From a virus: a stretch of DNA of 32,353 nucleotides. The stretch lies in the IMG/VR virus record IMGVR_UViG_3300031951_000757, positions 1-32,353 of that record. The stretch is one strand, 5' to 3'. The notes under the pieces are model-generated. The model made no database searches. It saw only the letters and a program-made list of their open reading frames with translations, and was not told the DNA's origin. Below are positions 2,332-16,055 of this stretch, piece after piece (positions within the stretch are counted from its first letter, which is position 1; each line of letters starts with the position of its first letter). The position numbers and the translations under genes are program-made.

Positions 2332-4533
2332 TTATACTGTCCTAATAGTTATCTCGAGTACTCCTCCAAAGCCATCAAACCTTTTGTCAGGCGGAGTCAT
2401 ACGTGTGAATGTAATTTGTTCAATAACTGCCTGCCTAGATTCGCCAGTAGTTAAGTCTTGCCAGGTAACTACGTCACCATTTTGTTCTAAGTCTTCTAAT
2501 GTCTGGATTTTTTGAAAGGCTCTGCCCTCAAAACCATACATAGAATTATATCTATCTGTCTCAACATCAAAGCAATAGACAGGAAAGCGCACCATGCGCT
2601 GACGTGGAGTAGCAATAGTTGCCTTTGCTTGATAGCCCTTAAATGTTGGACCCTTAGTAGCATCAGTTATATCTCTAGCCAATGTAAATTTATAAGCAAG
2701 ATATTCTTGCGAGGTTTGTGGGGTAGATGTAGTTACTTCAATTGATTCTACATCGGCATCGTAAGTAATAATTTCAGTCTCAACACCACTAGCATCTACT
2801 GTTTGTAATGATAAGTAACCATAAGTAAAGTCACCACGACCAATTAAACGTTTAAAGTTTTTTGGTTCAAGGGTTCCATAGCGAATGTTACCTGTTTTAA
2901 CATAACCAGATGAAATAAGATTTGTGCCCTCTACATATGTGTATCCAGCAATAGCCACTGTTCCAGTAGGAGATACTGCAGCAGATGCAATAGTTCCAGA
3001 TGTTGCAGTAGTAAATGTAAATGTTGTAGTAGTTGGTGTTGTTACAATTGTTTGTTGTCCATTAAGAGCAGCATCTACTCCAGCAATAAACACTACATCT
3101 CCAGCGGTTAAACCGTGAGCAGTAGATGTTGTAAGCGTAGCAGTTGTAGTTGTCCGTTCTTTATTTGATACAGCAATCTCATCCTTTGCTGCTGTGCAGT
3201 AAGCCAAAGTATCTGTATTGCCAAGAAATGCAACACCAGTAGTTACATGACCTGTAGGACCTGGATAATATAAATCATTAGCATAGGCAAACCGTAGGTT
3301 TTCCAACTCAGCCCCAAGGTCAATGCGAGTAAGACCAGGTTCTCCACCTACAGATGTAGCACACCATACAAATCTATCTCTAAATGTAAAGCCATATACT
3401 GGTTGAGTTGTTTCAATAATTAGTGGACCATACTTAATAGAACCATCTTGGTCTGACACATCAGCAACACGGACACCCTTGCTTGTGCCAATAACCATGT
3501 AGCCACCATAGTATTTAATGCTATGAATAATTTCTCCTACTGGCATTTCGGCAGCCACCACAGCAGAGGTTAAAGTGGGCAAAGCACCAGCAGTTGATAA
3601 AGTAAATTTAAATATAGATGATTGGATACCATTAAATCCAGAGATATATATTGCTGGTCCAGATGCTGTTATTCCAGTAAATGTATAACTAGATGTTGGG
3701 TGTGTGTATAAAGCAGTTGGCAATGTAGTTGCTGAACTTGTGAACTCATATACAGAGTTATTAAAGCAGGCAATAATTCTTTCTTTGGCAAAATCCATTA
3801 CAACATTGCTTACAGTAGTGCCAGTAACATCAAACATTTTCGTGCCAGCAGTAGATGAATCAGCAGTTAATGCTTTTTTGTATACAGTTAGTTTAGTAGT
3901 ACCACCAGAAGTAACGTTAGTTACCCAGTAAGCATTGCTACCATCATCACAAATTCCATATACCTTGTCATCTGTTCCAGCATTGTAATCAATGAAGTGG
4001 GTTTCAACACCAGCAGTATCAATCTTATCTACATCATAACCATCGTGTAGTAGTACACCATCAGTATTGTTCCAACGTATAGAACGAATCTGTTGATAAG
4101 CACGACCAGTAGAATGGATTGGTGCTGTAGTTATATGTCCTGCTGTAGATTCATTAAGTAAAGTTACCTGTCCTTTGGTAAATACATCTACGCCCTTGCT
4201 ATCTGCAAAACGGTTAAGAACAATTTCGCCAGATGTTGGGTCATAAAATTTAATGCCAGTGCCTTTATGGAAAGAAGATTGGCTGCGAATCCACCAACCA
4301 GTAAGTGACTGCTCACCTGGTTCTTGCTGGCTATCAAACTGTTCCTTCTTAAAGGGTGCTGTTTGACGGATGTATGGACGGTTATCATTGATAGCGTAGA
4401 TAAATGGGACACCATTTAGGGCTACATCATAAGCAATATCAGTATTTTGCCAGATAGCATTTGACGCAACAATACCAATATCAACCGCAATCGCTCTACT
4501 GGAACGACCTTCAGTAATATCACGATTAGCCAC
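2332..4533 (-). CDS. Large tail protein, probable beta-propeller tail nozzle
   Basis: A 733-residue protein with no membrane span, built almost entirely of short beta strands. Residues about 130-420 hold repeating units in which an aromatic or hydrophobic strand alternates with turns such as NNTDGVLLHDGYD, GICDDGSNAYWVT, GFTFRDRFVWCAT and SIKYYGGYMVIGT, the pattern of a beta-propeller. An insertion around 460-530 (TSTAHGLTAGDVVFIAGVD and a Thr-rich strand) matches a small beta domain common in phage tail proteins. Length and architecture resemble podovirus tail nozzles (T7 gp12-type, about 800 residues). It starts with GTG, supported by AAGGAG five bases upstream inside the 3' end of the glycosyltransferase gene. 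A minor tail protein of a long-tailed phage is the alternative. Confidence 0.6.
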   Translation of the reverse strand: MANRDITEGRSSRAIAVDIGIVASNAIWQNTDIAYDVALNGVPFIYAINDNRPYIRQTAPFKKEQFDSQQEPGEQSLTGWWIRSQSSFHKGTGIKFYDPTSGEIVLNRFADSKGVDVFTKGQVTLLNESTAGHITTAPIHSTGRAYQQIRSIRWNNTDGVLLHDGYDVDKIDTAGVETHFIDYNAGTDDKVYGICDDGSNAYWVTNVTSGGTTKLTVYKKALTADSSTAGTKMFDVTGTTVSNVVMDFAKERIIACFNNSVYEFTSSATTLPTALYTHPTSSYTFTGITASGPAIYISGFNGIQSSIFKFTLSTAGALPTLTSAVVAAEMPVGEIIHSIKYYGGYMVIGTSKGVRVADVSDQDGSIKYGPLIIETTQPVYGFTFRDRFVWCATSVGGEPGLTRIDLGAELENLRFAYANDLYYPGPTGHVTTGVAFLGNTDTLAYCTAAKDEIAVSNKERTTTTATLTTSTAHGLTAGDVVFIAGVDAALNGQQTIVTTPTTTTFTFTTATSGTIASAAVSPTGTVAIAGYTYVEGTNLISSGYVKTGNIRYGTLEPKNFKRLIGRGDFTYGYLSLQTVDASGVETEIITYDADVESIEVTTSTPQTSQEYLAYKFTLARDITDATKGPTFKGYQAKATIATPRQRMVRFPVYCFDVETDRYNSMYGFEGRAFQKIQTLEDLEQNGDVVTWQDLTTGESRQAVIEQITFTRMTPPDKRFDGFGGVLEITIRTV

Positions 4534-5265
4534 TTATTCTCCTTGTGCTTGTTTGTCTTTCACTTGTTCTTTCAGCAACTGCATTGACCAATACAATGAG
4601 TAATAGTCATAGTCCCACGTAGTAGTTTTCATGTGCTTAGCAATAGCGCCAGTGTGTGCATATAAAGGTATCTCAATGGCTTTGCATTTGCGGAAGAATG
4701 ATATGTCTTCACCAACAAACTTGTCATTCTTCTGGTCATTCTCAGCAAAGAATGAAATGTCAGTGCCATACTTCTCACGTAGTTTAGTTACTACACTACG
4801 GTGCATAACAACTAATCCCATACCAGCCATATCAATTTTAAGGACTTCATTTACTGGCAAAGGATGATGATACTTAACTGTATACTCATCAATATCATCA
4901 AAGATAACTGGCATAGGCACTGGCAAACTACCATTTGTAGTCTTAGAAATAAAATAAATACCACTCACCATAGGATGAGTCTTACTATCTGCTGTATCGT
5001 GTAGTAGTTTCCATATATCAGGATTAATTACTACATCAGAATCTACCCACAGTAGCCAATCTGTCTCAGCATTGTCATACCAGTGGTCTAGTAATGCTTG
5101 CCTTTGCCTAGCAATTTGATTGCCTTGAACTCTAATAGATTTAGATATAGGCATACCAAGTCCAACACTAGTAAGCACTACCGAAAGTAATCCTTCAGTA
5201 AACTTGCCATCAGTTACGCCGTTATCACACCAACCAATTGCTACTGTTTCATTCTTTTTAATCAT
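4534..5265 (-). CDS. GT-A-fold glycosyltransferase
   Basis: A 243-residue protein with the GT-A hallmarks: WLLWVDSDVVI with the metal-binding D75-x-D77, a distal acidic motif VGEDISFFRKC (E186/D187) in the position of the acceptor-site base, and later histidines (H204, H211) that could complete metal binding. An N-terminal Rossmann-like strand and the RQRQALLDHWYD helix fit nucleotide-sugar binding. It would transfer a sugar from a nucleotide donor; the acceptor is unknown. It is inserted between the adhesin cassettes and the nozzle gene, which suggests glycosylation of the Thr/Ser-rich tail proteins or of the host surface. The ribosome-binding site is AAGGGG just upstream. It is preceded by the 73-base gap that holds the hairpin at 5286-5312. 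Confidence 0.75.
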   Translation of the reverse strand: MIKKNETVAIGWCDNGVTDGKFTEGLLSVVLTSVGLGMPISKSIRVQGNQIARQRQALLDHWYDNAETDWLLWVDSDVVINPDIWKLLHDTADSKTHPMVSGIYFISKTTNGSLPVPMPVIFDDIDEYTVKYHHPLPVNEVLKIDMAGMGLVVMHRSVVTKLREKYGTDISFFAENDQKNDKFVGEDISFFRKCKAIEIPLYAHTGAIAKHMKTTTWDYDYYSLYWSMQLLKEQVKDKQAQGE

Positions 5266-5285
5266 ATAGTCCCCTTATGTTTAAT

Positions 5286-5312
5286 TGAGTAAGCAGTTTA
5301 AACACATGCTCA
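5286..5312 (-). other. Intergenic hairpin, copy 1 (bulged)
   Basis: An inverted repeat in the gap between the 125-residue protein and the glycosyltransferase: TGAG-(TAA)-GCA, an 11-base loop, then TGCTCA. The TAA is a 3-base bulge. The surrounding bases (TTAATTGAG and CATGCTCAGG) match the corresponding gap at 7594-7622, so the element was copied along with the adhesin cassette. No U-tract of terminator quality follows on the minus strand. A processing, stability or attenuation role is possible. Confidence 0.55.
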
Positions 5313-5338
5313 GGTGTAGTATAACTAGATTATTTTAT

Positions 5339-5716
5339 TTACAGTTTTTTGTACTCATACCAATTAAGAATTAATTCATCCCAAATATAACCATAACCAT
5401 CTTTTGCTGGTGGTTTAGGTATTGGTGTCTTCCAAGCAAGTGAATCTTCATCCCATATCCAAGATGGGTATGGCTTAATAGGAATAAATATATCTCTAAT
5501 TACGTCATACTTGAATCCAATTCCAGCAAAATACTTTCTCATATTTCCATTGTATGAAGTTTGTAAGTATCTTCCAGTTGGATTGTTATAAAGGTTTCTT
5601 AAAAATTCAATACCTTTTTGTTCGGATTCAACACCATTGTCTAGTAAAACATCATTAGCAACAGAGTAAACAGCAACTACAATATTGTCTTGATTAATTT
5701 CTGCAAAATGAGCCAT
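5339..5716 (-). CDS. Tail-adhesin cassette protein C, copy 1
   Basis: A 125-residue soluble protein beginning MAHFAEINQDNIVVAVYSV and containing PYPSWIWDED and PIPKPPAKDGYGYIWDE. It is a divergent paralogue of the protein at 7636-8055: both share M-x-H-x-AEI-x-(x)-x-NIVV at the start and a Pro/Trp-rich second half (PYPSW, then W-x-x-PI-x-KP). Small proteins with an HFAEI/NIVV start occur beside tail-fibre genes in marine cyanophages and pelagiphages, but their function is not established. It could be a fibre cap, chaperone or small virion protein. The gene follows the 507-residue adhesin by 10 bases and ends at the hairpin-bearing gap. Its role with the adjacent adhesin is inferred from the conserved order in both cassette copies. 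Confidence 0.65.
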   Translation of the reverse strand: MAHFAEINQDNIVVAVYSVANDVLLDNGVESEQKGIEFLRNLYNNPTGRYLQTSYNGNMRKYFAGIGFKYDVIRDIFIPIKPYPSWIWDEDSLAWKTPIPKPPAKDGYGYIWDELILNWYEYKKL

Positions 5717-5726
5717 TGTTTTCTCC

Positions 5727-7250
5727 TTAAACCGTTAGGCTTCCATTACCATTGAACTGGTAGATGTATCTACCACCAGATTGAGTTGCCGTTGGTGAGC
5801 CAGTTGTAGATGCTGCTTCTTTGTCTAAACTTAGAATAACAACACCACTTCCACCAGCACCGCCACCACCAGCATTATCACGGTTTCCACCGCCACCACC
5901 ACCCCTGTTTGCAGTTCCTGCTCCAGCCGCAGTTGATGGGCTATTACCGCCACCAACACCGCCACCACCAGAACCTGCAGCGCCGCCTGCGTTTTCTCCA
6001 GCACCACCGCCACCGCCTGCATAAGTTACAGATGAACCAGTTATAGATGATGCACTACCTGCTCCACCTGCTGCACCATTAGGGGCAGTTGCATTTGCTC
6101 CAGCAGCACCTTTACCGCCACCACCTCCGCCAGCCCAAGTGCTTGAAGAAGAGGAACCGCCGTTGCTACCCTCTCCAGAAGTTCCTGTTCCGCCAGCACC
6201 ACTGGCATCTCCACCGCCACCACCAGAACCACCGTTTGCTCCAGTTATAGGACCTGGGTCCCTATAAAACCCTCCCCTACCACCACCAGTAGTAGTAATT
6301 GTAGTGAATGCAGTTGAAGAAGAAGTAACGGAAGATGTATTACCGCTTGTTGCGGTATTTCCAGAGCCACCTGCGCCAACGGTAACAGTAAGTACAGTAC
6401 CACTACCAATTGAAAAACTTCCTGTTTTCATACCGCCTGCACCACCACCACCACCAACAGTTGACGGTCCGCCACCGCCACCAGCAACTACTAAATAATC
6501 AAATGATGTAATAGTAGGAACTGTTATTGAATTAGTTGCAGTTGAATCTGCACAAGTTCCATTAGCATTAGTTGCTTTAACTTTAAAAGTATAACTACTT
6601 CCAGAAGTAAGTCCTGTAAATGTATGTGTTGTAGAACTAGTTGTTGCTGCAGTTTGAGAAGTTTGCGCAGTAGTTCCATTAAGGAATGGAGTAATAGTTA
6701 TAGATGTGAGATTTTTTCCACCATTACTTCCATTAGTCCAAGTAACAGTTACATCTGTAGTTAGAGCAGATGTACTTGCGGAACCAATAGTTCTTACTTC
6801 TGGTAATGTTGTTGGGGTTACTGCTGCTGCATTTGCAGTATTAACAGTTGTACCAAAATTGTTTTGAGCGGTACCGTAAACAGTATAAGCAGTTCCTGGG
6901 GCAAGACCAGTTAATGTTACGGTTGTGCTTGAACTAGATGCAGAATGCCCACCAGCCGTTGTATAAGCATTATACTGATTAGGCGTTCCGCCACCACTAC
7001 CTGGGGTAAATACAACCTGTAACTTTCCAGCAGTAGATGTATAGGCATCACCAGTTGAAACATCTGTTGGTGTTGCAATAGAAGGAGTTGCTGGTGGTGC
7101 AGATGCTGCAACCCATTGTGTGCCATTATAAATTTCAAGGATTTCTAGTTCACCATTGTAAAAAGTGTCACCAATTACTGGACCAGATGGTCGAGCAGCA
7201 GTATTACCTGATGGGATTCCGCCTTTAGCGGGATATGATGAAAATGCCAT
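5727..7250 (-). CDS. Glycine-rich tail adhesin with two fibronectin III-like domains, copy 1
   Basis: A 507-residue protein with four zones. Residues 1-50 form a short N-terminal module (GIPSGNTAARPSGPVIGDTF, then YNGTQWV) typical of phage fibre attachment segments. Residues about 55-147 and 150-245 are two fibronectin type III-like beta sandwiches (GLAPGTAYTVYGTAQN and GLTSGSSYTFKVKATN are their F-strand motifs). From about 250 to 480 the protein is a glycine-rich domain starting FDYLVVAGGGGG, with many GGGG runs. The last 20 residues are a Gly-poor strand (GGRYIYQFNGNGSLTV). Glycine-rich domains of this type in phage adhesins (S16 gp38-like) can pack as polyglycine-II helices with receptor-binding loops at the tip. 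It overlaps the 104-residue gene upstream by one base (TAATG) and is paralogous to the gene at 8055-9677. Confidence 0.8.
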   Translation of the reverse strand: MAFSSYPAKGGIPSGNTAARPSGPVIGDTFYNGELEILEIYNGTQWVAASAPPATPSIATPTDVSTGDAYTSTAGKLQVVFTPGSGGGTPNQYNAYTTAGGHSASSSSTTVTLTGLAPGTAYTVYGTAQNNFGTTVNTANAAAVTPTTLPEVRTIGSASTSALTTDVTVTWTNGSNGGKNLTSITITPFLNGTTAQTSQTAATTSSTTHTFTGLTSGSSYTFKVKATNANGTCADSTATNSITVPTITSFDYLVVAGGGGGPSTVGGGGGAGGMKTGSFSIGSGTVLTVTVGAGGSGNTATSGNTSSVTSSSTAFTTITTTGGGRGGFYRDPGPITGANGGSGGGGGDASGAGGTGTSGEGSNGGSSSSSTWAGGGGGGKGAAGANATAPNGAAGGAGSASSITGSSVTYAGGGGGAGENAGGAAGSGGGGVGGGNSPSTAAGAGTANRGGGGGGNRDNAGGGGAGGSGVVILSLDKEAASTTGSPTATQSGGRYIYQFNGNGSLTV

Positions 7251-7564
7251 TATGCAATCTCCACTCCACTGATGTGGATTGTCACAGCAGTTGTAGATGC
7301 ATAACCTGAAATTGTTTTAGGTGTACCAGAAGCAGGGATAACCTGCTTTAAATCAAACACAGCAAGTGAGTTAGCAGAGATTGCTACCGTAGGCACAATC
7401 ACTACTCCGTCAATTGCTACCGTTGCAGAGGCTGCACTTGTAGCAGCGTTAGCCAATACAATGTTTGTTACCACAGTTATAGTGGTTGTTGTTGGCACTG
7501 TATATAGCGTTGCACTTGATGTGGCTGCTGCTGTTCTAGCAAGAGCCTTTGTTACTGTAGCCAT
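7250..7564 (-). CDS. Tail-adhesin cassette protein A, copy 1
   Basis: A 104-residue, Ala/Thr/Val-rich protein of alternating beta strands (TLYTVPTTTTITVVTNIVLAN, then TVAIDGVVIVPTV) ending in HISGVEIA. It matches the 109-residue protein at 9677-10006 in layout (TLYTV near residue 20, an N-x-A-x-TSA core, a final S/G-x-EIA), so the two are paralogues. The fold is probably a small jelly-roll or beta sandwich as in fibre adaptor or head-decoration proteins. It has GAAAGG as ribosome-binding site and is translationally coupled to the adhesin gene by TAATG. It opens cassette copy 1. The exact role is unknown. A trimeric collar between tail tip and adhesin is one option, a decoration protein another. 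Confidence 0.6.
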   Translation of the reverse strand: MATVTKALARTAAATSSATLYTVPTTTTITVVTNIVLANAATSAASATVAIDGVVIVPTVAISANSLAVFDLKQVIPASGTPKTISGYASTTAVTIHISGVEIA

Positions 7565-7598
7565 TAGTTACTACCTTTCGTTGTTGGTTAAAATTAAT

Positions 7599-7621
7599 TG
7601 AGCAGTTTTAATCCATGCTCA
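7599..7621 (-). other. Intergenic hairpin, copy 2 (perfect)
   Basis: A perfect 6-bp inverted repeat TGAGCA/TGCTCA with an 11-base loop, in the 71-base gap between the two adhesin cassettes. On the minus strand it is followed by AATTAATTTTAA rather than a clean U-tract. The same element with a 3-base bulge lies at 5286-5312 in the equivalent gap. Position downstream of protein C in both copies suggests a conserved mRNA element that controls read-through or 3'-end stability. Confidence 0.6.
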
Positions 7622-7635
7622 GGGATACAAATTAT

Positions 7636-8055
7636 TTAAAGAGGTTGACTTGTAGATACATCAGCAGGTCTAATTGGACAATTATGTCCAACCCACTCTT
7701 TGTTTATTTCAGACCATTTCCATTGGAAATCTTCTGAAACCTCAGTAGGTTTTGCGATAGGTGGTTCCCATTTAAATGTTTGATAATTTAATTTCCAAGA
7801 AGGATAAGGTCTTGGACTAATGAATACATCAAATGTATAATCATAGATATCTCCAACGGCTGCAAATTTATTGCGTATTGGAGTGCCACCTAGAGCGTGA
7901 ACCCCATCTACAGTGTTGTAAGATGTTTTAATCCAAGTACCACCAAGATTATCTATTAACCATTGATAGCCCTCATCACCCGCTGGGTCGTTATTGTCAC
8001 CTACGGTAACTCTAACTACTATATTATTTTTATCTATTTCTGCCCAATGACTCAT
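7636..8055 (-). CDS. Tail-adhesin cassette protein C, copy 2
   Basis: A 139-residue protein, MSHWAEIDKNNIVVRVTVGDN at the start, with PYPSWKLNYQTFKWEPPIAKP in the second half. It is the paralogue of the 125-residue protein at 5339-5716, but its C-terminus is extended (VGHNCPIRPADVSTSQPL). The middle contains TWIKTSYNTVDGVHALGG, whereas copy 1 has YLQTSYNGNMRKYFAG, so the QTSYN/KTSYN strand is conserved and the following loop differs. It begins where the 540-residue adhesin stops (one-base overlap at 8055) and ends before the hairpin gap. The function is not recognised. Conserved order next to an adhesin suggests a small tail-tip component or fibre-assembly helper. Confidence 0.65.
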   Translation of the reverse strand: MSHWAEIDKNNIVVRVTVGDNNDPAGDEGYQWLIDNLGGTWIKTSYNTVDGVHALGGTPIRNKFAAVGDIYDYTFDVFISPRPYPSWKLNYQTFKWEPPIAKPTEVSEDFQWKWSEINKEWVGHNCPIRPADVSTSQPL

Positions 8056-9677
8056 TATACATACCTCACTATTAGTACGCCAGAACCGCCTGCTTTTCCT
8101 TCACTGTTTGCTCCACCGCCACCACTTCCAGTATTGGCTTTCCCTGCAGTAACTCCAGATGTATTTCCACCTGAAACACCACCAGTTCCACCGCCACCAT
8201 ATCCACCTCGTGGACTTCCGTAGGCACCGCCTCCGCCACCTCCAAGATAAATTGTTCCTGGATTAGAGCCAAGACTTGAAACTAATGCATTTGAACCATT
8301 TGTTCCAATCTGTGCTGCCCATAAAAATGCAGCAGTATCAGTTGTAGAACTATTTAGCCAATTGGTTTTACCATCTCCACCAATGTTTACTCCAGTACCT
8401 GGGTCACCATCAGCGTTTCCACCAGCAAGACCAGTTCCACCGCCACCACCACCATTGCAGCAGTTATACCCATTACCACCATTATTTCCATATTTATTAG
8501 TTCCAGTAGAAAGTGTAGAGTCAGCAGAACCACCAGCACCTGTTGCAGCGCCATCAGGGTGTCCGCCTCCACCACCACAACCGCCATTTTGTCCTGGACC
8601 AGTATTGCTGTTTCCAGCAGTATCTCCAGTCTTTCGTCCAGCACCACCACCACCAGCAGCAATAACTGTTGTGCCAAGGGATGTATTAGTACCTGGACTG
8701 GTTGTTCCTGCTTGTGCTGCACCACCTGAACCAATTGTAACAGTTTGGTTTGAGTTTATAGATACTGAAGGTGAATAAACAAGTGCGCCTGCACCGCCAC
8801 CGCCAAAGCCACCACCACCGCCACCGCCGACTGCTAATATATCAAAATCAACAGTACCGCCACTAACGCCAAGTGTTCCATTAGATGTAAATACACGATA
8901 GTTATATCCACCGCTTGTAATCAAAGTACCGCCAGTAATTGTTGGTGCTACTGGTGTTACCGAAGAATAAGCACTTGAAGCAGGACTGTCTCCATTTGCA
9001 TTGACTGCTTTTATTCTAAATGTATAAGCAGTTCCATTAGTTAACCCACTTACTGTTAATGGACTTGTTGTTTGAGCAGGACTAAATGCTGTATATGTAG
9101 TTCCATCAGTTGAATACTTATAGTTTGAAATTGATTTACCGCCTGTATTTCCAGCAGTAAACGTTAAAGTTACTGATGCACTTGCTGCTGTAGACGTACC
9201 AATAGTAGGTGCTTGTGGCAATGTTGTTGGAGTTACTGGACTAGCATTGGCTGTATTGGTTGAAGTTCCACTACTATTTTGAGCATTACCATACACAGTA
9301 TAAGCAGTGCCAGGTGTTAATCCTGTAATTACTACTGTTGTGCCTACTGTTGTAAAACCACTATGTCCACCTGCTGTAGTGAAAGCGTTGTATTGAGTTG
9401 GTGTACCACCAGTGGCTGCTGGGACAAAAACAACATCCAGTGTTCCAGCAGTTGAGGAATAAACAATAGATGTTGATGAGTCTGTTACGCTGCTAATTGT
9501 TGGCGCATCAGGTGGAAAGCCCTCACTTTTTAGTACTTTCCAAGTTGTGCCATTGTAAATTTCTAATGCTTCTACTTGACCATTGTAATAAGTATCACCA
9601 ATTACAGGGTTAGTTGGTCTACCAGCAGTATTGCCTGATGGGATTCCAGTTTTAGCGTTTAATTTATTTACTGACAT
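8055..9677 (-). CDS. Glycine-rich tail adhesin with two fibronectin III-like domains, copy 2
   Basis: A 540-residue paralogue of the protein at 5727-7250. The N-terminal module is nearly the same (GIPSGNTAGRPTNPVIGDTY, YNGQVEALEIYNGTTWK). Two fibronectin III-like domains follow (GLTPGTAYTVYGNAQN and GLTNGTAYTFRIKAVN). A Gly-rich domain begins near residue 280 (FDILAVGGGGGGG) and runs to a short C-terminal strand (GGSGVLIVRYV). The Gly-rich zone differs from copy 1 in loop sequences, including an unusual YNCCNGGGGGG with two adjacent cysteines and a long non-Gly insertion (TNWLNSSTTDTAAFLWAAQ). These loops are where receptor specificity would be expected to change. It overlaps both neighbours by one base. 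It probably provides a second receptor-binding protein. Confidence 0.8.
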   Translation of the reverse strand: MSVNKLNAKTGIPSGNTAGRPTNPVIGDTYYNGQVEALEIYNGTTWKVLKSEGFPPDAPTISSVTDSSTSIVYSSTAGTLDVVFVPAATGGTPTQYNAFTTAGGHSGFTTVGTTVVITGLTPGTAYTVYGNAQNSSGTSTNTANASPVTPTTLPQAPTIGTSTAASASVTLTFTAGNTGGKSISNYKYSTDGTTYTAFSPAQTTSPLTVSGLTNGTAYTFRIKAVNANGDSPASSAYSSVTPVAPTITGGTLITSGGYNYRVFTSNGTLGVSGGTVDFDILAVGGGGGGGFGGGGAGALVYSPSVSINSNQTVTIGSGGAAQAGTTSPGTNTSLGTTVIAAGGGGAGRKTGDTAGNSNTGPGQNGGCGGGGGHPDGAATGAGGSADSTLSTGTNKYGNNGGNGYNCCNGGGGGGTGLAGGNADGDPGTGVNIGGDGKTNWLNSSTTDTAAFLWAAQIGTNGSNALVSSLGSNPGTIYLGGGGGGAYGSPRGGYGGGGTGGVSGGNTSGVTAGKANTGSGGGGANSEGKAGGSGVLIVRYV

Positions 9678-10006
9678 TATGCAATCTCGCTTCCAAATGC
9701 GTTGAATGATACTGTTGCAGATGATGCATAGACTGTAACTACATCAGTTGCTGCAAGAGTTACGCCAATAGTAATCATGGTGCTATCGTTTGCTGCTACT
9801 GTTGAGTCATATGCAATGTAATGCTTTGCCGCTAGTGTTTCACCAGCAGGGCGAATTGCTACACGATAAGTTGCAGATGTTGCTGCCTGGTTTGTTACCG
9901 CAATGGTTGACAATACCGCTGACTTACCCGACCCTACAGTGTAAAGAGTTGTTGCTGTTGTTGCTGATGGGTTTAGTTGACCCAGTACTTTATATGTTGT
10001 TGCCAT
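9677..10006 (-). CDS. Tail-adhesin cassette protein A, copy 2
   Basis: A 109-residue, Ala/Thr-rich all-beta protein (TTLYTVGSGKSAVLSTIAVTN, then ATYRVAIRPAG) ending FNAFGSEIA. It corresponds to the 104-residue protein at 7250-7564 and, like it, ends in TAATG with the next adhesin gene. The pattern TLYTV-x-(x)-SAVLSTIAVTNQA resembles small phage proteins that sit next to fibre genes and are predicted to be jelly-roll folds. It starts three bases after the stop of the 38-residue gene. Function is inferred only from its conserved place at the head of the three-gene cassette. Confidence 0.6.
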   Translation of the reverse strand: MATTYKVLGQLNPSATTATTLYTVGSGKSAVLSTIAVTNQAATSATYRVAIRPAGETLAAKHYIAYDSTVAANDSTMITIGVTLAATDVVTVYASSATVSFNAFGSEIA

Positions 10007-10009
10007 TGG

Positions 10010-10126
10010 TTATGCTCCCATTGTCATTAGTGCTGTCGGGGTTGAATCTGCTGCTGCAAGTTCTGCGTCTGTAGCAATGTTGGTTGCATCAGATGCTAGG
10101 TTTGCTAGGTCTCGTGCTTTTGTCAT
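10010..10126 (-). CDS. 38-residue fibre-associated micro-protein
   Basis: A very short ORF with MTKARDLANLASDATNIATD at the start and ALMTMGA at the end. Its ATG overlaps the stop of the 683-residue fibre gene as TAATG (10126), and it ends just before the cassette protein A gene. The MTKARDLANLAS-type start recurs as a short tail-fibre segment in many phages, which argues that it is translated rather than random. Its last residues resemble the C-terminus of the preceding fibre (IMTIMGAY), and the matching bases TGCTCCCAT occur at both gene ends, suggesting an old local duplication. It may be a remnant of a fibre C-terminus or a small separate fibre component. Confidence 0.6.
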   Translation of the reverse strand: MTKARDLANLASDATNIATDAELAAADSTPTALMTMGA

Positions 10127-12177
10127 TAGTATGCTCCCATGATTGTCATGATGTCTTGTGCATTTTGAGAATTAGTAAAGTCTGTTGATGTAACTGCATT
10201 TGCTACCTCAAAGGAAGTAAATGTAATAATCTCAACAATATCGTTAGCAGCAAGTGCAGCAAGAGAAGTAATGCTTGAACCATTACTTGCTGTGTAATCT
10301 GAAGTGCGGACAAGAAGCACGCCGTTAAGATATACTTGTTCTTTACCAACAATGTATGAAAGTGTTGCGCCATTAGCATCAATGCCAGAGATTGATGTTT
10401 CTCCACCAGATGCTGTGTATCTGTAGCGATAGATTTCTGCAGAAGATGAGATAGAACCCCATGCAGAACCAGACCAAACAAACATAAGGTTACTTGTAGT
10501 GTTCCAATAAAGAGCACCAGTTACCAGTGCGTTGCCATCATTATCAACAGATGGAGCAGATGCTTTAGCGCCTAGGTATCTATCGTCAAAAGAATCGTAT
10601 GATGCAGCAGCAGCGGCAGCAGAGGCTGCAGCAGCAGTAGCAGAACCAGCAACATCATCTACATACAACTTGGTAGCAGCGTGTAGGTTTTGAGTTGGAG
10701 CACCAGCAAGAGTTAAGTTACCAGTCATTGTAGAACCAGACTTAAGTACGAATGACTCATAAACAGTTCCACCTGCTTGGATTGCTGTTGCAATCTCACC
10801 AAGGGTATCTAATGTTCCAGGTGCAGAATTAACAAGGTCTGCCACTTTTGTATCTACGTAAAGTTTAGTTGCTGCATCTGCATTAGATGTAGGTGTAGCA
10901 AGAGATGTAATCTTCTGGCTATTAAGAGATACTGAACCAGTAGGTGCAGCCATCTGGTCTAAGCGAGATGTTCTTACCTGTGTATCAAAATCTGAGATAG
11001 TAGACGCAGCCTGTGAGCCTGTGTGGTTAGCACGAGCATATGGGTCAGATACCATCTTGGCTGCAGTAATAGTTCCATCTGCAATATCAGAGGCAACAAT
11101 AGTGCCATCTACTAAATCGGCAGAAGTAATTGTGCCAGAAAGGTCTAACTTAGTTTTAGCAATTGCAGCAGTAGAACTAATGTCAGCATTTACAATAGTG
11201 CCATTGGCAATCATTGTAGATGTAACTGTGCCTGAATCATCCAGAGTTACTGCTGTGCCAGAAATCTTAGTCTTATCAATAGCAGCAGAAGAATTAATAT
11301 CAGCATTAACAATTGTTCCATCAAGAATTTTAGCCGAAGTTATTGCTCCGTCTGCAATGTCTCCTGCGACAATTGTGCCATCTAAAATTTTGGCAGAGGT
11401 AATAGCGCCATCTGCAATGTCGCCAGCAACAATAGTTCCATCTGCAATCTTTGCAGAGGTAATGGCTGAATCCGCAATCTTTGCGGTAGTAACATTAGAA
11501 TCAAGAATCTTTGCAGTAGTTACAGCATCAGATGCAATTTTAACAGCGGTTACTGCGCTATCAACAATCTTAGCAGTTGTAATAGATAGGTCATCAATCT
11601 TAGTTGTGCCTACAGCGCCAGTGGCAATCTTACCGCTTGTAATAGCGGAGTCTGCAATATCACCAGTAGCAATGGTTAAATCTGCAATCTTTGCAGATGT
11701 GACAGCACTATCAGCAATCTTGGCTGTAGTTACATTTGAGTCAGCAATCTTTGCTGTAGTTACAGAAGAAGACTGCAACATTGTTGTTGTAATCATATCT
11801 GTATCTGTAGTCTCAAGAACGTTTGCAATAGTCAACCCGTGTGCTGTGGTTGTATTCTCAATGTGTGTGTTGGCTTCACGATAGTCACGACCAATTGCCA
11901 TGTGGCGGACAACTGCACCAGCAGAGTGAGCCTGACCAGTTGAACCATCAACACCACGAGTAATTGTTAGTGTGTTAGTGCTAACCGCACTGACATCTAC
12001 AATTTCTTCAAGAACTGTATCTGGGTCAATAACTACTGTGAAAATTTCACCAGCAGAAATTGTTAAACCACCTAACAAGCCAGTACCAGAAACAACAGTA
12101 GCGCTTGTAGCGGTTGATGTAAGAGCCGCTGTCAGTGTTGTTTGCTGTGAGCGGGAGGAGTATTTACGTGTTGTCAT
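10126..12177 (-). CDS. Repeat-rich tail fibre protein
   Basis: A 683-residue fibre. Residues about 30-105 form an N-terminal beta domain (FTVVIDPDTVLEEIVDVSAV, TITRGVDGSTGQAHSAGAVV) seen in many phage fibres. Residues about 139-376 carry roughly two dozen 10-residue repeats of the type [VI]-T-[TS]-A-K-I-[AL]-D-[SG]-x, which would form an elongated trimeric beta shaft. A Lys/Tyr segment ATKLYVDTKVADL and a second KLYVDD copy follow, with GSTMTGNLTLAGAPTQNLHA between. The C-terminal region (GALYWNTTSNLMFVWSGSAW, YLNGVLLVRTSDYTASNG) matches carbohydrate-contacting domains at fibre tips. It starts with ATG nine bases after the adaptor gene stop, with AGGAAC as ribosome-binding site, and is the first of the fibre/adhesin genes. 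Confidence 0.85.
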   Translation of the reverse strand: MTTRKYSSRSQQTTLTAALTSTATSATVVSGTGLLGGLTISAGEIFTVVIDPDTVLEEIVDVSAVSTNTLTITRGVDGSTGQAHSAGAVVRHMAIGRDYREANTHIENTTTAHGLTIANVLETTDTDMITTTMLQSSSVTTAKIADSNVTTAKIADSAVTSAKIADLTIATGDIADSAITSGKIATGAVGTTKIDDLSITTAKIVDSAVTAVKIASDAVTTAKILDSNVTTAKIADSAITSAKIADGTIVAGDIADGAITSAKILDGTIVAGDIADGAITSAKILDGTIVNADINSSAAIDKTKISGTAVTLDDSGTVTSTMIANGTIVNADISSTAAIAKTKLDLSGTITSADLVDGTIVASDIADGTITAAKMVSDPYARANHTGSQAASTISDFDTQVRTSRLDQMAAPTGSVSLNSQKITSLATPTSNADAATKLYVDTKVADLVNSAPGTLDTLGEIATAIQAGGTVYESFVLKSGSTMTGNLTLAGAPTQNLHAATKLYVDDVAGSATAAAASAAAAAASYDSFDDRYLGAKASAPSVDNDGNALVTGALYWNTTSNLMFVWSGSAWGSISSSAEIYRYRYTASGGETSISGIDANGATLSYIVGKEQVYLNGVLLVRTSDYTASNGSSITSLAALAANDIVEIITFTSFEVANAVTSTDFTNSQNAQDIMTIMGAY
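11049..11763 (-). repeat. 30-bp degenerate tandem repeat encoding the fibre shaft
   Basis: About 24 in-frame units of 30 bases, with core text such as CTGCAATCTTTGC on the plus strand, each encoding one 10-residue shaft repeat (consensus ITSAKIADGT). Units alternate between AKI and GDI forms, and two adjacent 20-residue pairs (GTIVAGDIADGAITSAKILD) are nearly identical. This suggests recent unit duplication. Some units near 11049-11290 deviate in length. Confidence 0.85.
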
Positions 12178-12185
12178 TTAGGTTC

Positions 12186-13121
12186 CTATCGGCGGGAGAA
12201 GTGAACTCTTGTAGGGTAATTCGTCTGTTGTGCTTTATGTTCTTCTTGAAGACGCTGATTATATAAAGCGTATAGTTGCTTAGTTGCAGTTGAAGAAGCA
12301 CCATATGGACGTTTGCTATCTGTCTCATCAGCCTGAGGGCTTGTCTGTGAAGCACGGGCTGGGTCAAGGTATGTAAGCAAACGATATGAAGCACCAAGAA
12401 CTACCACGTCACGAGTAGATTCTGGTAAACCAGTTGTTGTTGTATAAACATCTGTGCTGTTTGTAAATGGTACTGGGTTTGTAGCGTATATAATTTTTAC
12501 TGTGCGACCAGCAATAGGTGCTTCGCCTAAAGTAATTGTTTGAACTATATCTGTTCCAGTTGTATATCCAAATGCCTCTGGGTTAGCGCTGGCATCAAAA
12601 TCCCATCTACGAATTGGAATCCACTCTTTTGTTGGACCAATACTCTGCCATGATACATAAAGAATATTACTAATATCTAAGTTAGCAAATGCATAGGTAG
12701 ATACTGCTGCATTAAAAGTAAAACTAGTTGATTTAACAGCATACAGATTTGCGCCTAAGGCACGGATAGTGTCTTGAATGGCACGCTTAACTACATGCTT
12801 TGGAAAAGTTGGGCTAACAATTACTCTTGTATCAACAGCATGGGTAGTAGCAGTAGTGCCGTAAAACCCACGACCATATGGTGCAACTGTTGCTGTGTTT
12901 CCTACACGGTCATAGTTATCTACATACATTAACTCTTCGCCAATTTCAATTACACCTTTACCTAAATTTTCAGTAGTTGCTAATCGCAAAACTAAAGGAG
13001 ATGAAGATGGAGAAGTTGTCGTAGTAATTGCTGTAGTCAGATAAGTAGAGCGGTCTTGAGTAAATGTGTATCCAGATAGGTTAATTAAAACCTCATCAAT
13101 CATATTGGCAAATGTAGTCAT
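12186..13121 (-). CDS. Probable tail adaptor / head-tail connector protein
   Basis: A 311-residue soluble protein. The N-terminus has a helix (FANMIDEVLINLSGYTF) and then a beta domain VIEIGEELMYVDNYDRVGNT with RGFYGTTATTHAVDTRV, related in type to the N-terminal domain of the adjacent fibre. Residues about 120-150 form a helix (KHVVKRAIQDTIRALGANLY) followed by beta strands with WIPIRRWDFDASANPEAFG. The C-terminal third is helical and charged (SYRLLTYLDPARASQ, KQLYALYNQRLQEEHKAQ), like ring-forming adaptor proteins under the portal. Position between the head-completion group and the fibre supports an adaptor role, but no decisive family motif is seen. The gene overlaps the 84-residue gene upstream by one base (TAATG at 13121). 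Confidence 0.5.
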   Translation of the reverse strand: MTTFANMIDEVLINLSGYTFTQDRSTYLTTAITTTTSPSSSPLVLRLATTENLGKGVIEIGEELMYVDNYDRVGNTATVAPYGRGFYGTTATTHAVDTRVIVSPTFPKHVVKRAIQDTIRALGANLYAVKSTSFTFNAAVSTYAFANLDISNILYVSWQSIGPTKEWIPIRRWDFDASANPEAFGYTTGTDIVQTITLGEAPIAGRTVKIIYATNPVPFTNSTDVYTTTTGLPESTRDVVVLGASYRLLTYLDPARASQTSPQADETDSKRPYGASSTATKQLYALYNQRLQEEHKAQQTNYPTRVHFSRR

Positions 13122-13375
13122 TAGGCGTTTATACTCCGTAACGCAGCAGGGGCTGCTAATCCAGTAGTCGAAGCAAGTTCATTGCAGATACCATCAATAT
13201 CTTTAAACTTATCCCTGGTTCTAGCAGCCTCGGCTTTAATATTAAGAGCACCTACAGTTGCAAGTCCAGTAGTACCAGCCCAAGCATTAGCAGCACCTTG
13301 TTCATCTAAACCAGTTGTTCCAGCAAGACGATTAAGTTCTGCTGTAAGACTACTACCTGCTTTGCCTAGTGCCAT
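13121..13375 (-). CDS. Small structural protein with AGTTGL repeats
   Basis: An 84-residue protein with three copies of a short motif: LAGTTGLDEQGAANAWAG, WAGTTGLATVGALN and LASTTGLAAPAALRS. The repeat spacing is irregular (17, then 32 residues). Proteins with the LAGTTGLxxQGAANAWAGTTGL pattern occur beside phage structural genes, but I know of no assigned function. It is translationally coupled to the adaptor candidate and likely a small virion or assembly protein. Confidence 0.65.
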   Translation of the reverse strand: MALGKAGSSLTAELNRLAGTTGLDEQGAANAWAGTTGLATVGALNIKAEAARTRDKFKDIDGICNELASTTGLAAPAALRSINA

Positions 13376-13401
13376 GGGTTACTTCTTTCTATGATATAAA
13401 T

Positions 13402-13560
13402 TTATTTTTTCTTTTTTGCTGCTGCATTGTCAACTAGATTTGGATAAGGTCTACCCGCTGCTTTAGCACGGGCTTTAGCCTTAGCCTTTTGCGCTGGTGT
13501 TAATGGAGTTGATTTTTTATTAGGATTTTTTTTATCCCAGAATGCTTTCTTCTTCACCAT
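13402..13560 (-). CDS. Lys-rich small protein (52 residues)
   Basis: Begins MVKKKAFWDKKNPNKKSTPL and continues TPAQKAKAKARAKAAGRPYPNLVDN before a Lys-rich end. It carries more than a dozen Lys/Arg residues and no predicted membrane span. The RPYPNLVDN tail recurs in small basic proteins of several phage groups. A DNA-condensing or capsid-lining role fits the charge but is inference. The start ATG overlaps the end of the upstream 84-residue gene by seven bases, indicating coupled translation. Confidence 0.7.
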   Translation of the reverse strand: MVKKKAFWDKKNPNKKSTPLTPAQKAKAKARAKAAGRPYPNLVDNAAAKKKK

Positions 13561-13808
13561 TTCACCTTATCTGCCCAGTATGCTGCTGACATTTTGCCTT
13601 TGGCAATATTCTTAGCATGACGTGCTTTAAATGACGCCTGCCGTGCTGTTGGCTTTTTATCACCAGTAACACCCTGTTGACCAAAGCGAATGGTTTTAAC
13701 CTTATCGCCTTCTTTAGCCACAACTACGTGTGACTTCTTTGGATGATTAGGTGTGCGCTTTGGCTTATTAAAACCTGACACACCTGCTCGCTTTAACCGT
13801 GGGTCCAT
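13554..13808 (-). CDS. Conserved basic phage protein, RLKRAGVSGFNKPKRTP type
   Basis: An 84-residue protein with PRLKRAGVSGFNKPKRTPNH, KSHVVVAKEGDKVKTIRFGQ and KARHAKNIAKGKMSAAYWAD. This strongly conserved text occurs in small proteins of many aquatic phages. They are commonly left as hypothetical. The VVVAKEGDKVKTIRFGQQG hairpin plus an RHAKNIAKGKMSAAYWADK helix suggest a small basic fold that may contact DNA or the capsid. It lies in a run of five short genes with almost no spacing, between the major capsid protein and the adaptor candidate. The function is unknown. Confidence 0.75.
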   Translation of the reverse strand: MDPRLKRAGVSGFNKPKRTPNHPKKSHVVVAKEGDKVKTIRFGQQGVTGDKKPTARQASFKARHAKNIAKGKMSAAYWADKVKW

Positions 13809-13810
13809 TG

Positions 13811-13972
13811 TTATCCCTTAACTTTCTTTAGCCTAGGATTTTTTTTCTTAGCAGCAGGGGAAGCCTTGCGGGCAGCCGAAGCAAGAATCGCACTTGCATT
13901 CTCCTTGCTGATTCCCTGCTTCTTCGCAATTCCCGCAGCAACTTTCTTGAACCCAGGATGCTTCTGTTTCAC
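13811..13972 (-). CDS. Small basic helical protein, HPGFKKVAAGIAKKQG type (GTG start)
   Basis: A 53-residue protein, KHPGFKKVAAGIAKKQGISK followed by ENASAILASAARKASPAAKKKNPRLKKVKG. The GTG start at 13972 overlaps the TAG of the upstream gene (TAGTG). No ATG start is available in this frame. The HPGFKxVAxxIAKKxGISxxxASAILA pattern recurs in small phage and viral proteins, typically with a Lys/Arg tail. Two helices with a Gly turn would form an HTH-like hairpin. A nucleic-acid contact or virion role is plausible but unproven. The gap to the next gene is 2 bases. Confidence 0.7.
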   Translation of the reverse strand: MKQKHPGFKKVAAGIAKKQGISKENASAILASAARKASPAAKKKNPRLKKVKG

Positions 13973-14262
13973 TAACGTTGCCGTCCTTTAACATATTTAC
14001 CGTTCTTATCAATTTGGTCGGATGAAGTACCCTTCTTCCCCTTAACGATTGCATTGATTGCTTCAATAACTTGGCGGTCCTGATTGTTGCCAGATGACAT
14101 AGCAGCACGCTTTGTTGCTGCTTCATTTGCTGGACCACGGTTTTGATAATCAAACTGTGCGCCGAGTGATGTGCCAATTGCAGTAGGAACGTCTCTTACT
14201 TCACGCAATGCGTTACCTACATAGCCACCAATTCTTTGGATTGGACTTTTACGGGTAGCCAT
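13972..14262 (-). CDS. Hypothetical head-region protein (96 residues)
   Basis: Sequence includes RIGGYVGNALREVRDVPTAI and NNQDRQVIEAINAIVKGKKG. It is mainly helical and basic, with no recognised family. It starts with ATG one base downstream of the 51-residue gene and ends overlapping the following GTG by one base. Location in the run of small genes after the capsid gene suggests a virion or assembly role. No other inference is supported. Confidence 0.6.
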   Translation of the reverse strand: MATRKSPIQRIGGYVGNALREVRDVPTAIGTSLGAQFDYQNRGPANEAATKRAAMSSGNNQDRQVIEAINAIVKGKKGTSSDQIDKNGKYVKGRQR

Positions 14263-14263
14263 A

Positions 14264-14419
14264 TTACTTCTTCTTACCCATTTTCTTCATGCCCTTTTTC
14301 ATTTCCATCATCTTCTCAGACTTGGATTCCATCTTTTCTCCTGCCTTGTAAGCAGCCTTCTTAGCAGCAGCCTTACCTTTTGCAGTGTATGGGAACTTCT
14401 TGTTTCCTACTTTTGGCAT
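14264..14419 (-). CDS. Lys/Met-rich small protein (51 residues)
   Basis: Begins MPKVGNKKFPYTAKGKAAAK and ends in a Met/Lys tail (KMMEMKKGMKKMGKKK). About 40 percent of residues are Lys. The PKVGxKKFPYTxKGKAAAKK start is repeatedly seen in small proteins of aquatic phages and is typical of a real gene. Start and stop are coupled to the upstream gene by TAATG at 14419. A nucleoid-like or packaged virion protein is one hypothesis. The function is unknown. Confidence 0.7.
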   Translation of the reverse strand: MPKVGNKKFPYTAKGKAAAKKAAYKAGEKMESKSEKMMEMKKGMKKMGKKK

Positions 14420-14730
14420 TATACTTGTCCTATCTCTTTCATAACCTCGGCTACTTTATGGTTTATTTTTTCTGCTTTAGGCATAGTTTCCGAGTTGTAT
14501 GCTGTACCTAAAACTTCTGATGCTTCATGCGCTTGCTGTATATCTTTCATGGTAGTTCCTGCTGGACGCATACCTTGGTCTCTTGCATCTCTATAAGCCT
14601 GTAGTTCTGCATTCCATTTCTTATCTGGAATATCTCTTTTAGCATCTCCAGCATTTACCTGAAGACCCATTACCTTACATCCAAAACAATCATCCAATGG
14701 TTCTGGATGTTCTTGCCAGTGATACGCCAT
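14419..14730 (-). CDS. Head-region protein with CxxC motif
   Basis: A 103-residue protein beginning MAYHWQEHPEPLDDCFGCKV and followed by MGLQVNAGDAKRDIPDKKWN. A single CxxC lies near residues 15-18, and the rest is helical and charged. The LDDCFGCKVMGLQVNAGDA text is found in small genes near the capsid gene of actinophages, with no defined function. I chose the ATG at 14730 rather than the in-frame TTG at 14733 because AGGGGG precedes it at a workable distance. It ends by one-base overlap with the Lys-rich gene. The lone CxxC could be half of a metal site completed by a partner. Confidence 0.65.
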   Translation of the reverse strand: MAYHWQEHPEPLDDCFGCKVMGLQVNAGDAKRDIPDKKWNAELQAYRDARDQGMRPAGTTMKDIQQAHEASEVLGTAYNSETMPKAEKINHKVAEVMKEIGQV

Positions 14731-14738
14731 CAATCCCC

Positions 14739-15008
14739 CTAGATTGCTGTGAAGTTTGCTTCTGTTACTCCAACTCCGCCTGCAATTAATGCAGCCTTAG
14801 TTGCCTCATTAACCGTGTGGTTATATCCGCCACGGTAAAATTCGTCATAGTCATCAAGTGAACTATCAATTGGATAACGAACCTGTGAATATGTTGCACC
14901 GCTTTTAGCAATGGAGATACCTCTATTGTCTTTGTAAAAATAGTGTAGGCGGTGTCTACCAATTGGTCCTTCTCGGACTATTGGTGTTGTGAATATGTAA
15001 TCTGCCAT
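14739..15008 (-). CDS. Hypothetical protein after the capsid gene (89 residues)
   Basis: A mixed alpha/beta protein with MADYIFTTPIVREGPIGRHR, RLHYFYKDNRGISIAKSGAT and NEATKAALIAGGVGVTEANF. Similar YxFTTP and RGISVxKxGxxY elements occur in small phage proteins next to the major capsid gene, which might be stabilising or head-completion proteins. The role is not identified. The ribosome-binding site is GGGAGAAC just upstream of the ATG, and the hairpin at 15037-15054 separates it from the capsid gene. Confidence 0.6.
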   Translation of the reverse strand: MADYIFTTPIVREGPIGRHRLHYFYKDNRGISIAKSGATYSQVRYPIDSSLDDYDEFYRGGYNHTVNEATKAALIAGGVGVTEANFTAI

Positions 15009-15036
15009 TGTTCTCCCTTAATGAACTTACTGATGA

Positions 15037-15054
15037 GGCTAGGTTTCCCTAGCC
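15037..15054 (-). other. Hairpin with GAAA tetraloop after the capsid gene
   Basis: A perfect 7-bp stem GGCTAGG/CCTAGCC with a GAAA loop on the minus-strand transcript (TTTC on the plus strand), in the 61-base gap downstream of the capsid gene. No U-tract follows, so full termination is unlikely. GNRA-capped hairpins in this position often protect the capsid mRNA 3' end or reduce read-through. That role is inferred. Confidence 0.6.
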
Positions 15055-15069
15055 CCACCCGTCAATCAA

Positions 15070-16023
15070 CTAAGCAATTGATGAACCTGATTCGATTCGA
15101 TATAGAGCCTCTTCACGGTAGCGTGCAAAGCCAAGAACGCCATACCAACCCATTGGGCGATGACGCATCAACTTGTCAACTACTGGTCCGATTACTACAT
15201 GTGGCTCTTCAGCAACTGCCTCAGCCAATGCTTGCTGTCCAGCAAGGATTGTGCGGTAGTTACGTGCTGAAGAAGCACCATCGGTTGCATTGTAAAGACG
15301 TGCAGATTCTACGAAGTATGCACCTTCGTATGTTCCGATTTCTCCTGCCCAGATGCGGTCTTGTGAAGAACCGTATTGGTTAGGAAGAAGCCATCCTGCT
15401 GAACCTGTCTCAGCACGAAGGTCGTGTGAAACTTCTGGGTGGATACCACACCAGTATAGGCTGCCCTTGCGAGCAATAGACTTGTTAGCACGTAACTTAG
15501 CAACAGCCTTACGGATGTTTGCTGAAGATAGTGTTGCTGCTGCAGTAATTGTTGCAGTAGATGTTGCTGTTGAACCTGAGTAGATTACGTTTGAACCACC
15601 ACGAAGAGTAGTCATCGCAACTTGGTCAATAGAATCTGCAAGGTTGAATGCAATAATGTTTGCAATTGCAGGGTCTACATCGGCAAGTGAGAACAACTCA
15701 AGTGCACGAGTTACCAACACTGAGTTACCGTACTCGTTAAGAGTAATGGTTACTGAGGTTGGTGTAGACATTGCTACTGCATCTGGGTCAGCATCTTCTG
15801 TTAGTGCAGTTGTTGCTGCTGAAAGGTCAACATAGCGTTGTAGAACAACTGTTGAACCTGGGATTGATTGTTTTGCGGGACGCTTATCTGCGACAGAACG
15901 AATTAGGGGTTCTGAGCGGAGAGCGAACTCTAGAAGACGGTCATACGCCTTCTGGACTAGACCTGCTGCACCTGCGGTACCTCCGAGAGAGGAAGAACCT
16001 GTTGATACGTAGGAGTTAGCCAT
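15070..16023 (-). CDS. Major capsid protein, N4-gp56-like
   Basis: A 317-residue protein with GAAGLVQKAYDRLLEFALRS, VADKRPAKQSIPGSTVVLQR, YVDLSAATTALTEDADPDAV and TITLNEYGNSVLVTRALELF. The order (AYDRxxLExA, then IPGSTVxxxRYVDLxxATTxLTE, then LxEYGxxVxxT) is the signature of the N4 gp56 family of HK97-fold capsid proteins. Typical length is 300-400 residues. It forms the icosahedral shell. It follows the scaffold gene by 32 bases and has a strong GGAGGTG ribosome-binding site, consistent with high expression. There is no obvious N-terminal delta domain to be cleaved; scaffolding is provided by the separate upstream gene. Confidence 0.88.
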   Translation of the reverse strand: MANSYVSTGSSSLGGTAGAAGLVQKAYDRLLEFALRSEPLIRSVADKRPAKQSIPGSTVVLQRYVDLSAATTALTEDADPDAVAMSTPTSVTITLNEYGNSVLVTRALELFSLADVDPAIANIIAFNLADSIDQVAMTTLRGGSNVIYSGSTATSTATITAAATLSSANIRKAVAKLRANKSIARKGSLYWCGIHPEVSHDLRAETGSAGWLLPNQYGSSQDRIWAGEIGTYEGAYFVESARLYNATDGASSARNYRTILAGQQALAEAVAEEPHVVIGPVVDKLMRHRPMGWYGVLGFARYREEALYRIESGSSIA

Positions 16024-16055
16024 TTTTCACCTCCAAGTGAATTAGGAAACTATGA

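Follow-up and report, generated by a model that had tools for sequence, protein, structure and literature searches.

The 32.4-kb virus record IMGVR_UViG_3300031951_000757 from IMG/VR, analysed here over its whole length of 32,353 nucleotides (nt) and referred to as the window, carries on its minus strand (5290-10006) two tandem sets of three genes, A, B and C, flanked by a tail-fibre gene and a glycosyltransferase-like gene (Table 1). A preliminary description of this DNA interpreted the two sets as a tandem duplication of an adhesin cassette. The gene coordinates agree with the three-gene order, present twice and at the sizes it gave, and the cassettes do encode Gly-rich adhesin-like proteins, two in one phage. 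By contrast, the duplication itself is contradicted by phylogeny. The two cassettes apparently represent different versions of a swappable receptor-binding cassette, united through inter-phage exchange rather than by copying, at a locus that, judged from the sequences of its relatives, is a hypervariable adhesin-exchange site. Taken as a whole, the reading that cassettes are swapped between phages, and that two alleles of different lineages are stacked in this freshwater phage, is a likely one.

Relatives of the locus were gathered by searches with C, the tail protein and the N-terminal halves of B. The loci were picked by similarity to the window, and the counts given below describe the window's relatives, not phages at large. 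Approximately unbiased (AU) tests reject a sister relationship of the window copies for all three genes (p = 6e-48 for A, 3.5e-9 for the N-terminal half of B and 0.00125 for C). The closest relatives of the B N-terminal halves are found in other phages, at 81-84% identity for B1 and 70-71% for B2, compared with 52% between B1 and B2, and the number of B relatives (119 in all) that are nearer to a given copy than B1 is to B2 ranges from 13 to 107, depending on the domain. A2 falls inside the A109 clade (12 rows, support 100/100), with 85-87% identity to the A109 protein of contig L189, while A1 clusters with A104 proteins from phages that have one cassette (85% identical to that of L275), and C1 clusters with the C proteins of L359, L104, L171 and L163, apart from C2. 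In a wider set, none of the 43 within-contig C pairs are mutual nearest neighbours, the median identity being 0.46 within a contig and 0.71 to the nearest C outside it. A recent tandem duplication is ruled out by the AU tests and by these pairs, which instead indicate the independent acquisition that the preliminary description had named as the contrary case.

The two cassettes are related mainly at the protein level. B1 and B2 share 52% identity in their first ~250 amino acids (aa; E = 4e-67) and the alignment is absent through the Gly-rich parts, in agreement with the earlier observation of matching N-terminal modules and FN3 domains and diverged Gly-rich parts. C1 and C2 are clearly homologous (32% identity across 130 aa, E = 5e-18), while the direct match of A1 and A2 is weak (38% over 52 aa, E = 0.002), their kinship following from intermediate sequences that connect them. 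As DNA, the cassettes exceed all shuffled controls in similarity only in the B anchor (76%, codon-shuffled maximum 71%), the spacer after C (74%) being above the shuffled mean but inside the shuffled range (maximum 76.5). The TAATG coupling described as duplicated is present at both A2/B2 and A1/B1, but coupling of B to C is confined to cassette 2, B1 and C1 being separated by a 10-nt gap, with a separate Shine-Dalgarno sequence for C1.

The gene order in the relatives is adaptor, tail fibre, A-B-C, an optional glycosyltransferase and tail protein. Of 83 distinct complete intervals from the tail-fibre gene to the tail protein gene, 38 contain a single set of A, Gly-rich gene and C, the single-cassette relatives that had been proposed as a check, and 16 contain two Gly-rich genes, two full sets being present in the window only. 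Tandem pairs of a Gly-rich gene and C, up to four, occur in other phages (e.g. L158). Pairwise identities of the adaptor and the tail protein are strongly correlated (Spearman 0.86-0.89); rank correlations of the tail protein with the Gly-rich tip (-0.02) and with C (-0.04) are not significant, and adaptor identities are likewise uncorrelated with the tip or C. In nine contig pairs with tail proteins 95-100% identical, the FN3 domains, the Gly-rich domain and C differ, mostly to the extent seen in random pairs, the match breaking off in B at a point from residue ~43 up to where the Gly-rich domain begins, and resuming within or just after C. These backbone-matched pairs with unrelated alleles bear out the earlier suggestion that the region is a substrate for recombination. 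A contig of the window's own species, L166, matches it at 99.6% along 5.3 kb, as far as window position 5316 at the pseudoknot edge, and then carries a different allele; identity returns to 96% around the A1/B1 junction, the FN3 domains, tip and C between being different.

B is predicted from its sequence to provide the receptor-binding tip. Both copies match the Pfam models fn3 (47 bits for B1, 43 bits for B2) and Gly_rich_2 (60.3 and 25.5 bits, respectively, cut-off 24.3). The B1 model has a predicted local distance difference test score (pLDDT) of 89.5, with the Gly-rich part mostly in blocks above 90, and matches in a fold search with the whole protein are dominated by FN3. A profile of the Gly-rich tip matches the tail fibre gp24 of cyanophage Pam3 (PDB 7YFW/7YPX) at E = 5e-4 over positions 320-495, a score that composition may inflate, while a tblastn search of B2 against annotated phages gave no matches, probably through low-complexity filtering. 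Pam3 gp24 likewise carries a Gly-rich distal adhesin domain (PMC9608196), from which B differs in its FN3 stalk and in having another anchor. In the T-even protein gp38 (T2, PP01, S16), Gly-rich motifs alternate with hypervariable segments at the fibre tip, and changes in the loops between the motifs alter receptor choice (PMC12892980). By contrast, the tip, stalk and anchor of the window's B form one polypeptide, and the C gene is adjacent.

Where the neighbour is present, C lies directly downstream of a Gly-rich gene (127 of 150 cases). Within the window's group (50 cassettes), the identity of C is correlated with that of the tip (rank correlation 0.45, p = 0.003; partial correlation 0.43, p = 0.002, with anchor and FN3 controlled), and not significantly with the identity of the anchor or of the first FN3 domain. 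The C2 model (pLDDT 92) is without helix beyond residue 37. Among 117 chains re-aligned to it, a Z of 2 is attained only by Pam3 gp25 (Z 5.3, root-mean-square deviation 2.2 over 58 residues) and by TfaMu (Z 2.3). Because of its covariation with the tip and a modelled fold resembling only two tail-fibre chaperones, C is probably the chaperone of the adhesin. Pam3 gp25, its best fold match, is a partner chaperone with a small beta-sandwich, which embraces the Gly-rich tip during assembly (PMC9608196). The C-terminal helical trimerisation domain of gp25 was not found in the C2 model, and C is therefore described as working like the tail-fibre chaperones rather than as a member of their family. 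C gave no match at E 1 to Pfam, including its tail-fibre-assembly models, and a sequence search against solved structures returned nothing relevant, gp25 included. In Alteromonas phages A5 and V22, the host-recognition module of the fibre and its cognate chaperone are common to distantly related phages (PMC10579305); in the window's relatives, by contrast, alleles are swapped between matching backbones and two are stacked, and glycine is unmentioned in the A5/V22 paper (PMC10579305).

In the proposed mechanism, the cassette would consist of a small adaptor-like A, the Gly-rich B and C, a chaperone or cap dedicated to the adhesin, and would end in the pseudoknot, with B built from a virion-anchoring N-terminus, an FN3 stalk and a Gly-rich receptor-binding tip. 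Stalk, tip and C would be replaced together by homologous recombination between phages, one arm being the conserved anchor with the upstream genes and the other running from the 3' end of C through the pseudoknot into the downstream gene. Two alleles from different lineages would have been stacked in tandem in the window, where most relatives have one, and since the stacked alleles differ, the phage probably makes two adhesins of different specificity. We infer from the sequences both this recombination route and the expression of both cassettes on virions.

Several observations weigh against this reading. The window backbone with another cassette-1 allele is seen in L166 only, a contig that starts at A1, cassette 2 lying outside it, and the tip identities used in the correlations derive from low-complexity alignments. 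The fold match of C with gp25 is weak (Foldseek E 0.88) and limited to residues 1-84. L084, of the same species, has a 34-nt frame-shifting deletion in B2 (window 8536-8569) and a 114-nt in-frame deletion in C2 (7716-7829), with 24 mismatches across 7.7 kb of cassette 1 and tail genes; cassette 2 may be dispensable or decaying in some strains, or the L084 contig may have errors, another contig, L003, being intact at the deletion sites. With the exception of the Planktophila phages E7 and F5, the relatives are all metagenomic contigs, and the conserved anchor could, as a plausible mis-join point, also yield assembly chimeras, a concern to which the position of the L166 allele at a contig end adds. 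However, the C2-A1 junction is spanned by contigs from other samples, L003 (98.8%, window 6642-16055) and L084 (99.7-99.9%, three blocks), making an artefact unlikely, and the same pattern recurs in the nine pairs, from different samples and most with both flanks. It is thus very improbable that misassembly created the tandem arrangement or the allele swaps.

An ancient duplication of the entire cassette, after which divergence and homogenisation with other phages erased the sister signal, would account for three homologous genes in the same order with the same A-B overlap, for the alike B anchors and pseudoknots, and for relatives that contain both A classes (L189, L194, L181, L252). It is nevertheless improbable, given the AU tests on all three genes, the 43 C pairs and the placement of A1 and A2 in separate clades, each also found in other phages. 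A more serious alternative, still on the unlikely side, concerns the partner proteins: A and C could be additional structural tail subunits, with C staying on the virion as a tip or cap, rather than assembly factors. The missing trimerisation domain fits such a role, and TfaMu is reported to stay bound to its fibre (PMC10579305); however, the only folds at Z 2 or above are those of tail-fibre chaperones, while the adjacency and covariation of C are compatible with both structural and assembly roles. Exchange of adhesin alleles between phages, with C as the probable chaperone, is the preferred explanation.

Each C gene is followed by an element of two interleaved stems: within stem 1 (3-4 pairs) lies a stretch of which 6 nt pair with sequence further downstream to form stem 2, and the loop has AAAC at its end (consensus NNC-C-TGAGCA-H-GNN-n-AAAC-TGCTCA). 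The preliminary description had noted a duplicated intergenic hairpin: the two copies are indeed present, 81% alike over 32 nt, but by its strong covariation the element is an H-type pseudoknot. In 49 distinct rows, 99% of the stem cells are paired, compared with 21-36% in slid alignments, and stem 1 covariation is 0.417, compared with 0.087 after shuffling. Stem 2 has the compensatory variants TAAGCA/TGCTTA, TGGACA/TGTCCA, TAGACA/TGTCTA and TGAACA/TGTTCA (shuffled control 0 of 274). In a pattern search of viral contigs with stem 2 fixed and stem 1 mostly free, the three inner stem 1 pairs form at all 85 distinct sites among the viral matches listed, and in a collection of bacterial and archaeal genomes they are kept at 71 of 83 readable sites.

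The pseudoknot was found in phages and genomes of many phyla, and stands behind a coding sequence in the isolates Mycobacterium phage Labelle, Arthrobacter phage Molivia, Lactobacillus phage phiEF-1.1 and Paracoccus phage ParMal1. Of 284 elements, 56% start within 14 nt past a stop codon, with a peak at 5-6 nt (random, 4.5%). A tRNA starts within 150 nt downstream of 26 of 286 elements, most at 3-13 nt, compared with 31 of 3495 ends of open reading frames (ORFs); these tRNAs are mostly of one tRNA-Asp lineage, with Arg, Leu and Gln also present, and Gly in Molivia. T-rich tracts are enriched, occurring at 35% of pseudoknot sites and after 16% of other ORF ends. A plain hairpin or terminator was rejected, the stems being interleaved and a T-rich tract present at only part of the sites, as was stop-codon recoding, frame 0 past the stop being no longer than in the control (median 11 codons in both) and the other frames shorter. 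Searches of Rfam 15 gave no credible match on the element (E 5-10) or in the window (E 1), and no description of the pseudoknot was found in the open-access PMC literature. The leader of the T-even gene 32 contains an H-type pseudoknot with similar short two-stem geometry and an A-rich loop crossing one stem, from which the post-C pseudoknot differs in its position just past stop codons and not in a leader, and in being without an Rfam 15 match. Tentatively, the element may represent an uncatalogued class of H-type pseudoknot, present in phages of many phyla 5-6 nt past stop codons and acting on mRNA 3' ends. Marking or protection of 3' ends is suggested because tRNA starts and T-rich tracts are places where mRNA 3' ends form; one guess would be that the element stops 3' exonucleases where a terminator, or RNase P acting on a neighbouring tRNA, has generated the end.

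Some further occurrences of the pseudoknot were seen. The tRNA-preceding copies (L383-L462, L470-L498) often follow a gene of ~335-353 aa, apparently in one widespread phage lineage. In Lactobacillus and Planomicrobium phages or prophages (phiEF-1.1, which is L601, and L513, L518 and L562), the pseudoknot is located just before an apparent scaffold gene. A comparable site, for the most part intergenic, is present in about 85 Staphylococcus phages.

Table 1. Features of the two-cassette region and its flanks (window coordinates)
Feature	Position	Strand	Description
Tail-fibre gene, other exchange-site boundary	10126..12177	-	PHROG 38058 tail fiber protein, E 1.5e-62
A2	9677..10006	-	109 aa, small beta-rich protein, A109 clade; TAATG overlap with B2
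B2	8055..9677	-	540 aa: anchor (residues 1-50), two FN3, Gly-rich domain
C2	7636..8055	-	139 aa, probable adhesin chaperone or cap; PHROG 7759 (E 9e-36); 'HWAEID..DNNDPAGDEGYQW' type
H-type pseudoknot after C2	7599..7626	-	4 stem 1 and 6 stem 2 pairs; covariation across family
A1	7250..7564	-	104 aa, A104 clade; TAATG overlap with B1
B1	5727..7250	-	507 aa: anchor (7101-7250), two FN3 (6507-7100), Gly-rich domain (5727-6506)
C1	5339..5716	-	125 aa; PHROG 7759 (E 4e-39); 'HFAEIN..GVESEQKGIEF' type
H-type pseudoknot after C1	5290..5317	-	window/L166 allele swap: identity resumes at its edge
Glycosyltransferase-like gene, exchange-site boundary	4534..5265	-	PHROG 34859, E 1.5e-100; backbone marker in relatives
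Tail protein gene, backbone marker	2332..4533	-	733 aa; 64.5% to Planktophila phages E7/F5, 34-36% to Streptomyces phages

Profile matches of A2 include PHROG 1276 (E 2e-9) and PHROG 693 'tail fiber protein' (E 4e-6). A short minus-strand ORF beginning MTKARDLANLAS occupies 10007-10125 of the window, separating A2 from the tail-fibre gene, and may encode a small fibre linker or a leftover fibre N-terminus; starts of a like kind, resembling MT(K/R)ARDLA, are also seen behind C genes in L005, L007, L012, L252 and L264. L148 and L153 each have a pair of consecutive, overlapping C-like genes (106 and 131 aa) behind a single Gly-rich gene.

The Nanopelagicales (acI) belong to the most abundant bacteria of fresh waters and, to our knowledge, very few of their phages are in culture. 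An actinobacterial host is likely for the window because its tail protein is 64.5% identical to that of E7 and F5 (OX376640/OX376641), phages isolated on 'Ca. Planktophila' (PMC10202952), and because it contains a WhiB-like ORF (656-928, recognised by eye). E7 and F5 share with the window the same gene order and WhiB, and from these sequence features the host is probably a Nanopelagicales-like actinobacterium. The E7 locus likewise contains A, two Gly-rich genes, C, the glycosyltransferase and the tail protein, but is without the FN3 stalk, has one C and has extra small genes between. In E7 (L163 18162-19758), three related proteins of 169-191 aa ('SISFSSIPSTYQHLQL') are encoded between the Gly-rich genes and C, and proteins of similar size occupy the places of Gly-rich genes in L182, L219, L224 and L239.

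In the window's relatives, whole adhesin alleles, comprising stalk, tip and partner gene, are replaced on matching backbones, which makes adhesin change traceable in population data. For PHROG 7759, annotated as 'unknown function', a role is suggested that can be put to the test alike in cyanophages, pelagiphages and actinophages. Should the pseudoknot prove new, it would constitute an RNA element that many phages have in common and whose placement next to stop codons is precise; it could be examined directly in ordinary isolates, among them Labelle, Molivia and phiEF-1.1. The exchange site may bear on how Nanopelagicales phages track a microdiverse host, one phage here carrying two alleles at once.

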